A DNA stretch of 64,000 nt, taken from contig QZKU01000004.1 of NCBI GenBank assembly GCA_003598085.1, forward strand, positions 1 through 64,000, written 5' to 3'. The notes under the pieces were generated by a model. The model made no database searches. It was given only the letters and a program-made list of their open reading frames with translations, and was not told where the DNA came from. The position numbers and the translations under genes were made by a program. Position 1 is the first letter of the stretch. Every line of letters starts with the position of its first letter. Source of the DNA: Candidatus Abyssobacteria bacterium SURF_5 (GTDB taxonomy: Bacteria > Abyssobacteria > SURF-5). Shown here one piece after another: positions 56,195 through 61,342 of the stretch.

Positions 56195-57577
56195 TCAGAT
56201 ACCCAACATCAGTTTGGCGAGGCCGAAGTAGATGAGCATGCCGGTTATATCGACGGAAGTCGCAAGAGCGGGGCTGGCCACAACAGCGGGATCGATCTTT
56301 GCCTTTGAGGCGAGAATCGGCAGCAATGCTCCGATTAGAGTGGCCGATATGACCTGCAGACCCAGTGCAAGCGCCACGACGGTGCTGATTTCGATGAGTG
56401 AGAAGCCGCCCGTGGTCGGACCGGGGGCAGGCGAGAAAAGGAAGACCCGGATGAGGGCAACCAATATGAGAGCCATGCTGAGCATCAGGCTCACGCGCAG
56501 CTCTTTCCAGACGACCTCGAAAATGTTGCCGGGACGTATCTGCCGCAGGGCGAGCGCTCGAACGACCACGGTCGCCGCCTGCGAGCCGGTATTGCCGCCG
56601 GTGCCGATCAGCATGGGCAGATAAAAGGCAAGGATGAAGACAGAGGTGAGCGTGTCCTCGAACATTTCCAGAACGGCGCCCGAAATAAGCCCGAGCAGGG
56701 CGAGCGTAACCGCCCAGAAGGCGCGCCGCCTGAAATGCGCAGTTGCGGGCACGGCCAGATAATTCTCGTCCTGCACCTCGCCCGTCAACCCCATGAATTT
56801 CTCGATGTCTTCGGTCTGCTCTTCGCGGATGATGTCCATGGCATCGTCATGAGTGACGATGCCTACGAGCGCGCCGCCGCCATTGATGATCGGGATTGCG
56901 AGCAGGTCGTACTTCTCAATTTTCCGCGCGACCTCTTCCTGATCCTCATCGAGGCGGGCCGAAATGACGTCGGAATGCATCACCTCGCCTACCCGTTTGA
57001 AGGAGCGAGCAAGAATAAGGTCTTTCAGCGATACGAAGCCGATAAGCCTTCTCTGATCGTCGACGACGTAAGCATAGTAAATGGTTTCCTTGTCGGGCGC
57101 CTCGAGCCGAAGCTTGCGGATGGCCTCCTCGACCGTCAGATCGGGTGAGAGGGTCGCATAATCGGAAGTCATCACCGCTCCTGCAGTGCCTTCCGGGTAC
57201 GACGCAAGTTTTCTTATGTCCTCGCGTTCGACCTGCGCAATAGCCGGCATGATGATCTGCGTTTCGGCTTCCGGCATCCGTTTAATCAGGTCCACCCGCT
57301 CGTCGTGCGACATGTTGGAAATGAGTTCCACGAGCTCGGGACGCTGCAGCGAGGACGCCAACGCTAGCTGAATCTCGCTGTCAAGATAACTGAAGATTTC
57401 CGCCCGCGCACGCCGGTCCGCATACGACAGGATTTGATGGATTTCCTCGGTGGTAAGGCCGCTGAGGAATTCGGCGATAAAGGCAGGATGCGTTGCTCCG
57501 CAAAATTCGCGAAGGCTCTCAGCGTTCCCCTCGGCAAGCAGCTCGCGCAACTCGGGGACGAGCAAAACGTTTTTCAT
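56195..57577 (-). CDS. mgtE: Magnesium transporter MgtE
   Basis: The 460-residue protein has the MgtE layout: an N-terminal MgtE_N superhelical domain (about 5-130), a CBS pair (about 135-255, AGAVMTSDYATLSPDLTVEE and VGEVMHSDVISARLDEDQEE), a plug helix and five transmembrane helices (about 285-460). GTGGNTGSQAATVVVRALAL is the conserved pore segment and IDPAVVASPALATSVDITG the C-terminal signature. The channel conducts Mg2+ and is gated by Mg2+ bound to the N and CBS domains. A consensus-like promoter, a hairpin, a small open frame and a hairpin hiding the ribosome binding site precede it. The glycyl-radical enzyme follows on the same strand 122 bases later. Confidence 0.96.
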   Translation of the reverse strand: MKNVLLVPELRELLAEGNAESLREFCGATHPAFIAEFLSGLTTEEIHQILSYADRRARAEIFSYLDSEIQLALASSLQRPELVELISNMSHDERVDLIKRMPEAETQIIMPAIAQVEREDIRKLASYPEGTAGAVMTSDYATLSPDLTVEEAIRKLRLEAPDKETIYYAYVVDDQRRLIGFVSLKDLILARSFKRVGEVMHSDVISARLDEDQEEVARKIEKYDLLAIPIINGGGALVGIVTHDDAMDIIREEQTEDIEKFMGLTGEVQDENYLAVPATAHFRRRAFWAVTLALLGLISGAVLEMFEDTLTSVFILAFYLPMLIGTGGNTGSQAATVVVRALALRQIRPGNIFEVVWKELRVSLMLSMALILVALIRVFLFSPAPGPTTGGFSLIEISTVVALALGLQVISATLIGALLPILASKAKIDPAVVASPALATSVDITGMLIYFGLAKLMLGI

Positions 57578-57581
57578 TATC

Positions 57582-57620
57582 CACCTCCGACAGGACCACC
57601 GCCTTGGCGGCCCGGAGGTG
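57582..57620 (-). promoter_or_regulatory. Hairpin sequestering the mgtE ribosome binding site
   Basis: The mgtE Shine-Dalgarno GGAGGTG (57588-57582 on the minus strand) lies in CGGAGGTG, which is perfectly complementary to CACCTCCG at 57620-57613. An inner CCGCC/GGCGG pair closes the loop. If this folds, translation start would be blocked. Confidence 0.6.
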
Positions 57621-57630
57621 AGGAGGGCGC

Positions 57631-57807
57631 TCAGTCCACTATGGACGCGAGCAGAACACCGGGGTGAGCAGCCACGGCGGGAACCGGTCCGAAATGTGGC
57701 AAATCTGTACTCGGCAAGTATGCTCTCGGAAAAAGCTTACTACTGCCAGATTCCTCCATCTCGTACTCCATTACAGATAAAAACTTGATAAATACTGATC
57801 CCTTCAT
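57631..57807 (-). CDS. Possible leader peptide upstream of mgtE (58 aa)
   Basis: An open frame from ATG 57807 ends 53 bases before the mgtE start and ten bases before the hairpin that covers its ribosome binding site. It contains an acidic cluster (MEYEMEESG) and eight prolines in the second half (LFPRAYLPSTDLPHFGPVPA). Acidic and proline-rich leader peptides control Mg2+ transporter genes in enterobacteria (MgtL-type), so a similar role is conceivable. No ribosome binding site is visible before the ATG; an in-frame GTG lies at 57825. Translation is unproven. Confidence 0.3.
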   Translation of the reverse strand: MKGSVFIKFLSVMEYEMEESGSSKLFPRAYLPSTDLPHFGPVPAVAAHPGVLLASIVD

Positions 57808-57810
57808 GAT

Positions 57811-57835
57811 AAAAGCGTTGCCCACAGGGCAACGC
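57811..57835 (-). terminator. Hairpin with short T-run in the mgtE leader (possible attenuator)
   Basis: GCGTTGCCC-TGT-GGGCAACGC is a perfect 9-bp stem with a 3-base loop, followed on the minus strand by TTTTATC. It starts about 30 bases after the expected transcription start, well before mgtE. Confidence 0.6.
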
Positions 57836-57872
57836 GCATCAACAGAGGCTTTTCAACCCCTGATCCGTGTTC

Positions 57873-57901
57873 ATTATAGTGAAATTCCAGCCGCCGGTCA
57901 A
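57873..57901 (-). promoter_or_regulatory. Sigma-70-type promoter of mgtE
   Basis: On the minus strand TTGACC (57901-57896), 17 bases, TATAAT (57878-57873). The mgtE start is about 290 bases downstream, leaving a long leader. Confidence 0.8.
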
Positions 57902-58021: not shown

Positions 58022-59920
58022 ATGAAAACCTGCACGATTCGTTTTATCCTGCTTTTTCTGTTTTTCGCGGGCGTCTCTTGCTCCGAAAAATCAGAAATGA
58101 AAACTGCGGCAGCAGGGAAGGATTCCTGGCCGCACGTTGTTCCGTACCTCGATAGCACACCTTCAGCAAAAGACGGACAAGGCACTGCTTCTGTTGCTCC
58201 CGCCGGTCCATTCCTTGCGGGCGCAATGACTGATTTTGAAATAGCTTTCACGGTCGGAGAAGCCGGCATAGCGCCCGGCGGGTTTGTTATACTTCAGGTG
58301 TCTCCATGGTGGGGATGGACGACGCCTCAAACGCTCGATCCCGATGGTCCAGGCTACACAACTGTCCGTACTTCATTTTCCGACGCCTCCACAAAAGCAT
58401 TTACACTCCAGCTCGGCAGAATCGTTGTCTCATCCGCGTCACGCGGCTTCAGGCACGGAGAAACCATCACGTTCAACCTGAAAGATGTGCGGGTGGATAA
58501 ATTTGCCGAGGCCGAGGAATTGTTCCAAATATTCACCGATGCCGACGGTGACGGCCACTCCCGGTGCATTGACAAACCTCCATCCGTCAGAGTAGAGGCG
58601 CGAGAAGCGGTTCGCCTCGAGGTAACGGCGCCGTCGCAGGTGAGACCGGGCGAAACAATCAAGGTGGGTGCGGCGCCACTCGATGTTCTCGGCAACTGGA
58701 GTACAATGCCGCCCGGCAGGTGGCGGCTGTCGGTTATCCGAAACGGACATACTGTGGATGATATCGCGGGGGAAGCATCTGGCGAAGAGAAAAGAATCAC
58801 CATTCCTTACGTCTTCGCTGAAGAGGGGCTGTTTTTCTTTGTGGTTGAAACTGCCTCGAGGTTGCAGGGCAAGAGCAACGTCGTCTTTTGCCGGCAGGGC
58901 GAACCTGCTCTGAATCTCTACTTCGGCGACATCCACGGCCATTCGCGCATGTCGGATGGGACCGGCACGCCGGGGGATTACTACCGATACGCGCGCCAGG
59001 TTTCGGGCCTCGATATCGCCGCACTGACAGATCATGCCGACTACGGAACTATTCCCATAGACGGGGCGGCTTGGGAGCGAATTAAAGATGCGGCAAACAC
59101 GGCGTACGAGCCGGGCGAATTTGTCACGTTCCTCGGCTTCGAGTGGACCAACTGGAAGTACGGCCACCGCAATGTCTATTACCGCGACGGCGATGGCCCG
59201 GTCTTCCGCTCAATCGATCCGGAGAGCGACTCCCCGCAGGAATTATGGGAATTGCTGCGGCCGTACGAGGCAATGACGGCCGCTCATCATGTTGGCGGCG
59301 GACCAATATCGACCGACTGGAGCATCCCGCCCGGCCCAAAAGAATACTTCGTCGAGATCAGCTCTATCCATGGGACATCTGAATTTCTCGGAGGCGATTC
59401 CGCAGTGTATCATCCGGTCAGGGGCGCGTTCGTACGTGATGCGCTGGCGAGAGGATACCGGCTCGGGATAGTCGGCGGAGGAGACACCCACGACGGCCAT
59501 CCCGGCCAAAGAAGCGCCGGCGCGCCGGTTACAGGACTTATGGGCGTCTACGCGAAAGAGCTAACACGTGAGGCGGTTTGGGAGGCATTTCGCAGGCGAC
59601 AGGTTTATGCAACCAGCGGCCCGAAGATCATCCTTTCCTTCCGAGCCGGCGATTCGCCCATGGGTTCGGAAATCACATGGAGCAGAAATCAGGGGCCGCT
59701 ACCCCTCGCCTTTCGCGCCATCTGTTGTGAGAAGATTGAATCGGTTGAAATCATCCGAAACGGACAGGCTGTGTTCCGGACGGCGGGTGAAGGTTTGACC
59801 GCTCAATACTTGCTAACAGATCCAGACCCACCTTCCGGCACTTCCTCGTACTACCTTCGAGTGAAGCAAGCAGATGGCAACCTCGCATGGTCAAGCCCTG
59901 TGTGGGTGACCAAAAACTAA
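58022..59920 (+). CDS. Secreted DUF3604/PHP-like metal-dependent hydrolase (632 aa)
   Basis: The N-terminus is a signal peptide with a possible lipobox ending in Cys (FLFFAGVSC, Cys at about 20), so this may be a lipoprotein. After a beta-rich region (about 60-295) comes the PHP-like domain: LYFGDIHGHSRMSDGTG, ALTDHADYG, AAHHVGG and VGGGDTHDGHPGQ supply the metal-binding His/Asp set. A final beta domain includes AICCEKIESVEIIRNGQAVF, as usual in DUF3604 proteins. The PHP fold hydrolyses phosphoesters or related bonds; DUF3604 substrates are not known. A TATAAT box is at 57945-57950 but without a good -35. The gene is divergent from mgtE and convergent with the next gene, 12 bases apart. Confidence 0.85.
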   Translation: MKTCTIRFILLFLFFAGVSCSEKSEMKTAAAGKDSWPHVVPYLDSTPSAKDGQGTASVAPAGPFLAGAMTDFEIAFTVGEAGIAPGGFVILQVSPWWGWTTPQTLDPDGPGYTTVRTSFSDASTKAFTLQLGRIVVSSASRGFRHGETITFNLKDVRVDKFAEAEELFQIFTDADGDGHSRCIDKPPSVRVEAREAVRLEVTAPSQVRPGETIKVGAAPLDVLGNWSTMPPGRWRLSVIRNGHTVDDIAGEASGEEKRITIPYVFAEEGLFFFVVETASRLQGKSNVVFCRQGEPALNLYFGDIHGHSRMSDGTGTPGDYYRYARQVSGLDIAALTDHADYGTIPIDGAAWERIKDAANTAYEPGEFVTFLGFEWTNWKYGHRNVYYRDGDGPVFRSIDPESDSPQELWELLRPYEAMTAAHHVGGGPISTDWSIPPGPKEYFVEISSIHGTSEFLGGDSAVYHPVRGAFVRDALARGYRLGIVGGGDTHDGHPGQRSAGAPVTGLMGVYAKELTREAVWEAFRRRQVYATSGPKIILSFRAGDSPMGSEITWSRNQGPLPLAFRAICCEKIESVEIIRNGQAVFRTAGEGLTAQYLLTDPDPPSGTSSYYLRVKQADGNLAWSSPVWVTKN

Positions 59921-59932
59921 GCAGAAGAGTGC

Positions 59933-60442
59933 TTACATCTCTTCTTCGGGCTCAGCCGCCTCAGGTTCGGCTTCGACTGAAGGTGCTTTCTCCTTGACCG
60001 TCCGCAGGCGATCTTTACCGAACATCTTCCAGAATTCAACAGCCTGTTCGCCACTCAGCGAATCCGCAAGAGCGGTCCACAGCTCCGCCTCCTTGGCAAC
60101 AACGGCTTCATGAGTTTTATGCACTCGTTGTATCTCGTTTTTGACTCGCGCAGGATCCGGACTACCCTGCAGCGCTGCCGTAAGATCTTGATAGGCTTTC
60201 TTATACCTGCTCACAAGCTCGTCGATTTGTTGGCGATACTGCTCGTTCACCTTCTTCATCCGTGCACGCTGTTCATCCGTCAACTGCAGTCTCTGATCGA
60301 TCGCGGTCATCTCTTTTTGACTGGGCGGGCGAAACACAACGGCCGGATCTCGCCCCTTCGTTTTGGCTGCCTGAGCCAGTGCATCTGCTCCAATGCCGAC
60401 AATTAAACCGAGAACTACCAGCGAAACCAGTGCCTTTCTCAT
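59933..60442 (-). CDS. Periplasmic Spy/CpxP-like (LTxxQ) helical protein, copy 1
   Basis: The 169-residue protein has a signal peptide (about 1-23, ending ADALA). The helical mature part carries LQLTDEQRARMKKVNEQYRQ, the LTxxQ pattern of Spy/CpxP periplasmic chaperones and metal-resistance proteins, a VHKTHEAVVAKEAELWTAL helix and an acidic tail (EAEPEAAEPEEEM). It is paralogous to the protein encoded at 60815-61303: both share RPPxQxEMxxxxxxLQLTDEQR and ELWxALxxxLxxEQ..FWxxFG. The gene has its own promoter (60485-60513). The role is inferred only from the weak family match. Confidence 0.65.
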   Translation of the reverse strand: MRKALVSLVVLGLIVGIGADALAQAAKTKGRDPAVVFRPPSQKEMTAIDQRLQLTDEQRARMKKVNEQYRQQIDELVSRYKKAYQDLTAALQGSPDPARVKNEIQRVHKTHEAVVAKEAELWTALADSLSGEQAVEFWKMFGKDRLRTVKEKAPSVEAEPEAAEPEEEM

Positions 60443-60814: not shown

Positions 60815-61303
60815 TTATCTCAAGAAGCCCTCGGGCGCCGGCGCCGGAGTCGTTGCGGGACCGGTTACTCTGCTTTGGCCGAATACCTGCCAGAATTTCT
60901 CGGTTTGTTCCTGCGTCAGATTGTTCGAAAGCGCATTCCATAACTGCATCTCCCTCGAAATGATCGAGGAGTGCAGCCGGTGCAACTCTTCGAGGGCATT
61001 TTCGACCTGGGCAGGATCGCTCGTTCCCTGAAGAGTTGCCGCAAGATTCTGTCGTGCAGTCTGATAGCTGCTTGTAAGCCTTTGCAGTTCCTGCGTGTAT
61101 TGGACGTACGTGTTCTGCAACTGAACGCGCTGTTCATCCGTAAGCTGTAACTGCTGGACAAGCGCATCGATTTCATTTTGAGTGGGAGGCCGCAGTAATA
61201 CCATCAAATCGGAACCCGCCTGTCCCACTTGTTGCGCGTTTGCCCCGATCCCGAAGGCGAACATTATTGCCACAACTAAGACGAAAGCAATCAACTTCTT
61301 CAT
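60815..61303 (-). CDS. Periplasmic Spy/CpxP-like (LTxxQ) helical protein, copy 2
   Basis: The ATG at 61303 follows AGGAGG by 9 bases and starts a clean signal peptide (MKKLIAFVLVVAIMFAFGIG, cleavage after GANA). The 162-residue protein carries LQLTDEQRVQLQNTYVQYTQ and LTSSYQTARQNLAATLQG, then ELHRLHSSIISREMQLWNAL and QEQTEKFWQVFGQSRV. It is a paralogue of the protein at 59933-60442, about 500 bases downstream on the same strand. The tail is Pro/Ala-rich instead of acidic. Envelope stress or metal roles are known for distant relatives only. Confidence 0.65.
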   Translation of the reverse strand: MKKLIAFVLVVAIMFAFGIGANAQQVGQAGSDLMVLLRPPTQNEIDALVQQLQLTDEQRVQLQNTYVQYTQELQRLTSSYQTARQNLAATLQGTSDPAQVENALEELHRLHSSIISREMQLWNALSNNLTQEQTEKFWQVFGQSRVTGPATTPAPAPEGFLR

Positions 61304-61342
61304 GTTTATCATCCTCCTGTAAAACACAACATCTTTTACTAA

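Follow-up and report, generated by a model that had tools for sequence, protein, structure and literature searches.

The window, by which we mean the whole stretch of 64,000 nucleotides from Candidatus Abyssobacteria bacterium SURF_5 that was analysed, carries on its reverse strand an mgtE gene preceded by a promoter, a small upstream open reading frame (uORF) and a stem that covers the Shine-Dalgarno (SD) sequence of mgtE (Table 1). The divergent neighbour of mgtE (58022..59920, forward strand) encodes a predicted lipoprotein with a DUF3604 domain. Further along, the reverse strand encodes two small exported proteins (59933..60442 and 60815..61327) that resemble the Metal_resist/LTXXQ (CpxP/Spy-like) family and are probably tandem paralogues.

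Table 1. Positions of mgtE and of the elements of its leader in the window
Feature	Coordinates	Strand	Remarks
mgtE coding sequence	56195..57577	-	460 aa; ATG at 57577; MgtE_N, two CBS and MgtE transmembrane domains
P1 3' arm, GGAGGUGG	57581..57588	-	holds the mgtE SD (57588..57584)
P2 inner hairpin, GGGCCGCC-AAGGC-GGUGGUCC	57593..57613	-	
P1 5' arm (anti-SD), UCACCUCC	57614..57621	-	9 unpaired nt from the uORF stop
Conserved uORF, MEESGSSKLFPRAYLPSTDLPHFGPVPAVAAHPGVLLASIVD	57631..57759	-	42 codons; N-terminal motif kept in relatives
Distal uORF RNA segment, CGGACCGGTTCCCGCCGTGG...	57656..57691	-	predicted pairing with 57620..57593 (P1/P2), an SD-free alternative
N-terminal motif M-E-E-S-G-S-S-K	57736..57759	-	acidic run ending in AGU AGU (codons at 57744..57739)
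9-bp hairpin and TTTTATC	57809..57835	-	5' UTR, between promoter and uORF
Sigma-70-like promoter TTGACC-17-TATAAT	57873..57901	-	11 of 12 consensus positions matched

An earlier note on this DNA had described the leader as a promoter, a hairpin with a T-run, a small acidic and proline-rich frame and a sequence complementary to the SD region. The promoter was confirmed. The hairpin (GCGTTGCCC-TGT-GGGCAACGC, present in one copy in the genome) is likewise there, perfect over its 9 bp at 57835..57815 and followed by the short T-run, and it could serve as an early terminator or as the end of an sRNA. As a conserved part of the leader it did not hold up, since no counterpart between promoter and uORF was seen in the two relatives inspected. 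A conserved terminator was rejected, hairpin/T-run sequences lying elsewhere in both of these relatives. Terminator-like hairpins in this region numbered 3 against 3.1 expected by chance, and the window sequence folded alone was only moderately unusual (z = -2.2).

The small frame of the earlier note, 58 codons from 57807 to 57631 on the reverse strand, is open, differs in frame from mgtE and contains MEYEMEESG, with six prolines where eight had been counted. Its start was probably placed too far upstream. In-frame starts upstream of 57759 lie at 57771 (giving MEYEMEESG) and at 57807, and GGAG precedes the ATG at 57759 by six nt. Judged from sequence, the true start is likely 57759, possibly 57771, and not 57807; we favour 57759 because the start MEESGSS/MDDSGSS/MEDPGST is common to the three aligned Abyssubacteria peptides, the MgtE proteins of the two relatives being 75% and 68% identical to that of the window. 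The uORF peptide had no match in Pfam.

Comparable uORFs, 14-62 codons long, were observed before mgtE in about 60 loci from at least five phyla (Abyssubacteria, Desulfobacterota, Spirochaetota, Planctomycetota and Pseudomonadota), some of the group names being deduced from which phylum was searched and from relatives that carry a name. The sample comprised the two genomes of the same family (75% and 68% MgtE identity) and more distant members (48-59%), with extra upstream stretches added for distant Pseudomonadota mgtE genes. Leaving aside the Treponema-like Spirochaetes, most of the closer mgtE genes have a small ORF whose end lies about 40-90 nt ahead of them, as do some Rhizobiales-type mgtE genes (30-34% identity). 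Most of these uORFs open with an acidic/Pro/Ser motif (MDDPSSR, MSDSDGSHS, MEESGSS, MPSDSxSR). The starts were MEESGSS (window), MDDSGSS and MEDPGST in Abyssubacteria; MSDSDGSHSC, MNDSDSSS, MDDPGSRT and MDPDGSRP in Desulfobacterota; MSDSDGSSR and MSEPSRP..EDP in Spirochaetes; MDASGNS in Brocadiaceae; MDDPSSR in Pelagibacterium and Rhodospirillales; and MPSDSxSR in the Rhizobiales type. When a strict form of the motif with AGU was counted, it stood before 29 of the 99 mgtE genes of at least 41% identity, before none of 615 other genes from the same loci and the window, and in none of 990 shuffled leaders; the conservation of the small frame, which the earlier note had put forward as a check, is thus borne out. 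Asp, Glu and Pro made up 33% of uORF residues 2-10 and 12% of those past residue 30, an enrichment that is partly built in, as the choice of ORFs drew in part on the same feature, the unselected control being the count of 29 in 99.

For some members the acidic-Pro motif lies deeper in the uORF (DDPGPRR, EEDPGPQR). A second acidic-Pro motif (EEPEDPGPR, DEPDDPGPR, DDPGPRR, EEDPGPQR), resembling the N-terminal motif of other members, occurs about 20 codons into Desulfobacterota-type leaders (L143, uORF codons 20-26; L113, L136, L084 and L187). The Rhizobiales-type uORFs (L228-L230, L234-L237, L243-L245, L247, L250, L266, L270 and L284) have 14-19 codons and the near-invariant nucleotides GCGACAGTNNNAGTCGA, with a small CGAC/GTCG hairpin possible. 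Neither uORF nor stem was seen for most of the Treponema-like Spirochaete mgtE genes (L159-L184 except L161, L170 and L174), which is loss or a different control; these genes encode proteins of 44-52% identity, and some lie directly 3' of another coding gene. One Desulfobacterota locus has a fluoride riboswitch close to mgtE (L135, 1014-1080, reverse strand). Just 5' of the uORF in L001 (about 2670-2800) we observed an inverted repeat, GGGGACATACT...AGTATGTCCCC, with arms about 90 nt apart, which is not in the window and resembles a repeat element.

The start of the uORF is marked by its codons as well as its residues. Among the serine codons at positions 2-10, 82 of 137 (60%) were AGU, against 12 expected from each locus's mgtE (7%; z about 21), and later in the uORF the AGU share of serine was 9%. 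CGA occurred 18 times at codons 2-10 with 2.5 expected (z = 10.6), and CCG, UCG, CGC and CGG were avoided at the uORF start. For these counts the uORFs had been picked by amino-acid pattern, the Rhizobiales members being recognised by eye. The AGU excess held separately in the Abyssubacteria, Desulfobacterota and Pseudomonadota groups; some Spirochaete and Planctomycete members have no AGU, and in the SDSDGSHS group the codon-4 serine stays UCN while the later serines are AGU. The AGU codon usually sits after the acidic/Pro run, which is where a slow A-site codon would be expected if it followed a destabilising nascent chain. An RNA hairpin, CGAC[AGUNNNA]GUCG, was considered as the cause of AGU and rejected: it is found in Rhizobiales and Pelagibacterium, and since it is missing from the window and from Desulfobacterota, selection at the level of codons fits better.

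The complement of the SD region claimed by the earlier note was confirmed as an 8-bp stem, P1 (CACCUCCG/CGGAGGUG), over the SD GGAGG. Across the family P1 begins a median of 8 nt past the uORF stop, despite uORF lengths of 14 to 62 codons. The last 19 nt before mgtE paired with the upstream arm better than with shuffled arms in 40 of 63 loci (p < 0.05 each), with a mean z of -2.3 over the 63. This pairing reaches into the variable spacer before the AUG, where the two sides change in compensation (GGUUCACC/GGUGAACC, GGCUCACC/GGUGAGCC, GUCUGCC/GGCAGAC). In an unguided MAFFT alignment of 30 leaders, chosen as uORF-bearing loci that aligned well, two-sided changes were detected at 12 of the 17 P1 and P2 pairs. 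Misaligned gaps are the probable reason why RNAalifold gave no pairs on the raw MAFFT alignment, and the structure used for counting was therefore read from individual leaders. Among 57 matches to a stem model, aligned by fitting to that model and with a few chance or opposite-strand hits among them, 14 of the 17 pairs showed two-sided changes, and two-sided cells numbered 68, against 23 for shuffled and 24-36 for slid structures. The covariation of the SD hairpin in relatives, another check named in the earlier note, was therefore found in both alignments. The stem model (R1) matched the window at 57575-57630 with 35.5 bits, the window being one of its training sequences. It recovered held-out mgtE starts (L004, L133, L185, L189, L084, L187 and others) down to E = 2e-7, and among 96 mgtE loci where no uORF of this kind had been seen it found only two places up to E = 1. 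When it was run against the whole genome of the window, this leader was the sole match, and the matches in G001, G002 and G005 also lay at mgtE starts, all of these with modest E-values. No match to the M-box or any other Rfam family was obtained at the leaders of the window and of 40 related loci, at gathering and at permissive thresholds, in agreement with the earlier note, which had seen no M-box.

The cost of freeing the SD from this stem was predicted with the RNA of real and of altered uORFs available for pairing. Over the family, the real uORF lowered this cost by 2.6 kcal/mol relative to dinucleotide shuffles (p 1e-7) and by 2.5 kcal/mol relative to codon-shuffled uORFs (p 2.5e-7), and the cost was also lower than with reversed uORFs (p 2e-5). 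The uORF paired better with its own leader than with those of other loci that had a similar GC content (p 2.5e-6); all these p values are optimistic because the loci are related by descent. In each group the mean effect pointed the same way. The competing pairs lie mostly 3' of the motif, involving 28% of distal and 10% of proximal nucleotides; as modelled, they are located where a full ribosome pass would prevent pairing. In L235 and L236, of the Rhizobiales type, the competitor stem of uORF and leader reaches 16-17 bp. For the window alone the competing pairing was weak and not significant: the cost of 12.4 kcal/mol fell to 9.1, where shuffled uORFs gave 10.9 (p 0.12), and a further test gave z -1.25 (p 0.10). 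A free uORF is not enough to open P1 of the window at the predicted equilibrium, and the proposed switch therefore has to rely on kinetic (co-transcriptional) folding. No enrichment was seen for pairing between the uORF and the 5' arm of P1 alone (mean z -0.16), and an anti-anti-SD mechanism acting on that arm only was rejected.

We consider it probable, at about 0.6, that the mgtE 5' leader is a translational attenuator that raises mgtE expression at low Mg2+. The comparison on which this reading is based covers the acidic/Pro/Ser-AGU start of the uORF, the covarying P1 and P2 over the SD, and the competing complementarity of the uORF. With ample Mg2+, ribosomes would read the whole uORF and cover its RNA, P1 would fold and translation of mgtE would be low. 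When Mg2+ is scarce, ribosomes would pause or dissociate at the acidic/AGU start through intrinsic ribosome destabilisation, and the distal uORF RNA, left free, would pair with P1/P2, expose the SD and allow MgtE to be made. We infer the Mg2+ response from the identity of the gene and by analogy, and likewise the drop-off and the sign of control. The proposal of the earlier note, a leader other than an M-box in which ribosome behaviour on the small frame frees the start of mgtE, finds good support in the comparison: the frame is conserved, the SD stem covaries, the two occur together and the competing pairing makes the freeing of the SD cheaper. The Rhizobiales-type MPSDSxSR motifs, which are less acidic than classical destabilising motifs, count against attenuation. 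The SD-masking stem makes Rho-dependent termination in the leader unnecessary, yet is compatible with it. More tentatively, and with the odds somewhat against it, the acidic nascent start and the near-mandatory, wobble-decoded AGU (often AGU-CGA) may form a joint Mg2+ sensor, a class that crosses phyla. In such a sensor AGU would set the pause and low Mg2+ would then let the ribosome fall apart, and the conserved signal would be codon identity, not the peptide alone.

The position of P1, a median of 8 nt past the uORF stop whatever the uORF length, would also suit translational coupling, in which the base of P1 is opened by the ribosome that terminates at the uORF stop, and mgtE is turned on only after the full uORF has been read; abortion at the uORF start would on this view reduce MgtE. 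Given the great stability of P1, some opener is required, and masking 16 nt past the stop lifted the predicted accessibility of the SD from a mean of 0.20 to 0.35. However, only about 10 nt past the stop codon are covered by a ribosome that has this codon in the A site, and masking 10 nt barely freed the SD (0.20 to 0.27), with no effect in the window. Moreover, should the acidic motif abort translation when Mg2+ is low, coupling would shift a Mg2+ importer in the wrong direction, and it leaves the competing pairing between uORF and P1 unexplained, so that we regard it as unlikely. A little less unlikely, though still improbable, is a codon or tRNA sensor, in which slow decoding of AGU (and CGA), through charging or modification of tRNA-Ser(GCU), sets the pause and the acidic residues only help. 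The excess of AGU (z = 20.8) and of CGA over each locus's own mgtE codon use and the UCN serine at codon 4 of the SDSDGSHS group, with AGU later, argue for it, as does the finding that AGU was the sole pausing codon of Caulobacter in minimal medium, the pause being gone in rich medium (PMC4117421); the proline-tRNA-sensing mgtP leader of mgtCBR offers a precedent (PMC8092293). Against it stand the regulated gene, a Mg2+ channel, the acidic/Pro residues that almost every member has ahead of AGU, the lack of AGU in part of the Spirochaete and Planctomycete members, and the observation that AGU was among the less affected serine codons in B. subtilis under serine starvation (PMC3862929).

An RNA that senses Mg2+ directly, whether M-box or new riboswitch, with the uORF incidental, would account for a covarying two-stem RNA that overlaps the SD, and a Thioalkalivibrio 'mgtE motif' has been put forward as a riboswitch candidate with SD and AUG at the stem base (PMC11109978). 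This is nevertheless very unlikely in view of the Rfam searches of the window and the 40 related leaders and of the unpaired positions outside P1, which, unlike those of an aptamer, are hardly conserved, the strongest conservation being that of uORF codons and amino acids. Least likely of all, and hard to credit, is that the uORF encodes a small protein with a function of its own, such as regulating MgtE, and that P1 is no more than a tight SD hairpin. The three Abyssubacteria peptides do share some C-terminal similarity (YFGPxPAxAAH), but beyond codon 10 sequence and length diverge between phyla (14-62 aa), codon choice and not the residue alone is conserved at the start, and Pfam gave no match.

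If translational attenuation is right, the mgtQ/mgtL principle would govern the MgtE channel in phyla parted by billions of years, whether as an ancient device or through repeated invention, and would do so in bacteria where no M-box is seen in the mgtE leader. The AGU signature bears on whether codon choice, beyond peptide chemistry, makes the ribosome Mg2+-sensitive, and it ties the mgtE leaders to AGU pausing in Caulobacter. In the open literature searched, most subscription literature lying outside the search, we found no uORF of this kind before a bacterial mgtE. To our knowledge, leader peptides that destabilise the ribosome in response to Mg2+ have been described in Enterobacterales alone, where mgtL, corL and mgtQ belong to P-type ATPases and CorA; in leaders of that kind bL31/EttA counteract the drop-off of ribosomes at low Mg2+.

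The M-box is the known Mg2+-responsive leader RNA of mgtE-type genes, and it was not detected in the scanned leaders of the mgtE-uORF family. MgtL (of mgtA) and CorL (of corA) from E. coli and Salmonella share with the mgtE uORFs the acidic/Pro start and, on the reading preferred here, the repression of a transporter by uORF translation. Their output is Rho-dependent transcription termination, whereas that of the mgtE leader would be SD masking; the transporter differs as well, and MgtL presumably lacks the AGU codon signature of the mgtE uORFs. The EPDP motif of MgtL causes ribosome drop-off at low Mg2+ (PMC11282234; PMC11552253), and in Mycobacterium an M-box is combined with a uORF (PMC12810186). 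The mgtE motif of Thioalkalivibrio, SRC-65-1, is a riboswitch candidate restricted to one genus in which, as in the present leaders, a covarying stem has the SD and AUG at its base, and for which no uORF is reported (PMC11109978); compared by its text description, it might be a member of the present family. The closest likeness is to Salmonella mgtQ, where ribosome abortion at Asp/Glu codons frees the mgtB ribosome binding site: both have a short ORF with acidic start codons, a Mg2+ transporter gene downstream, a stem-masked SD that a competing stem frees (here predicted) upon abortion or pausing, and a translational output (PMC8092293). However, mgtQ has 8 codons and lies inside an Enterobacterales operon for a P-type ATPase, while the uORFs described here have 14-62 codons and lie in the 5' leader of the channel gene mgtE, in at least five phyla and with an AGU signature. 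The competitor of the mgtE leader involves the P1/P2 region, in contrast to the discrete 1:2/2:3/3:4 set of mgtQ. So read, the mgtE leader is the mgtQ/mgtL principle with a new gene, a new architecture, a new codon signature and a far wider distribution.
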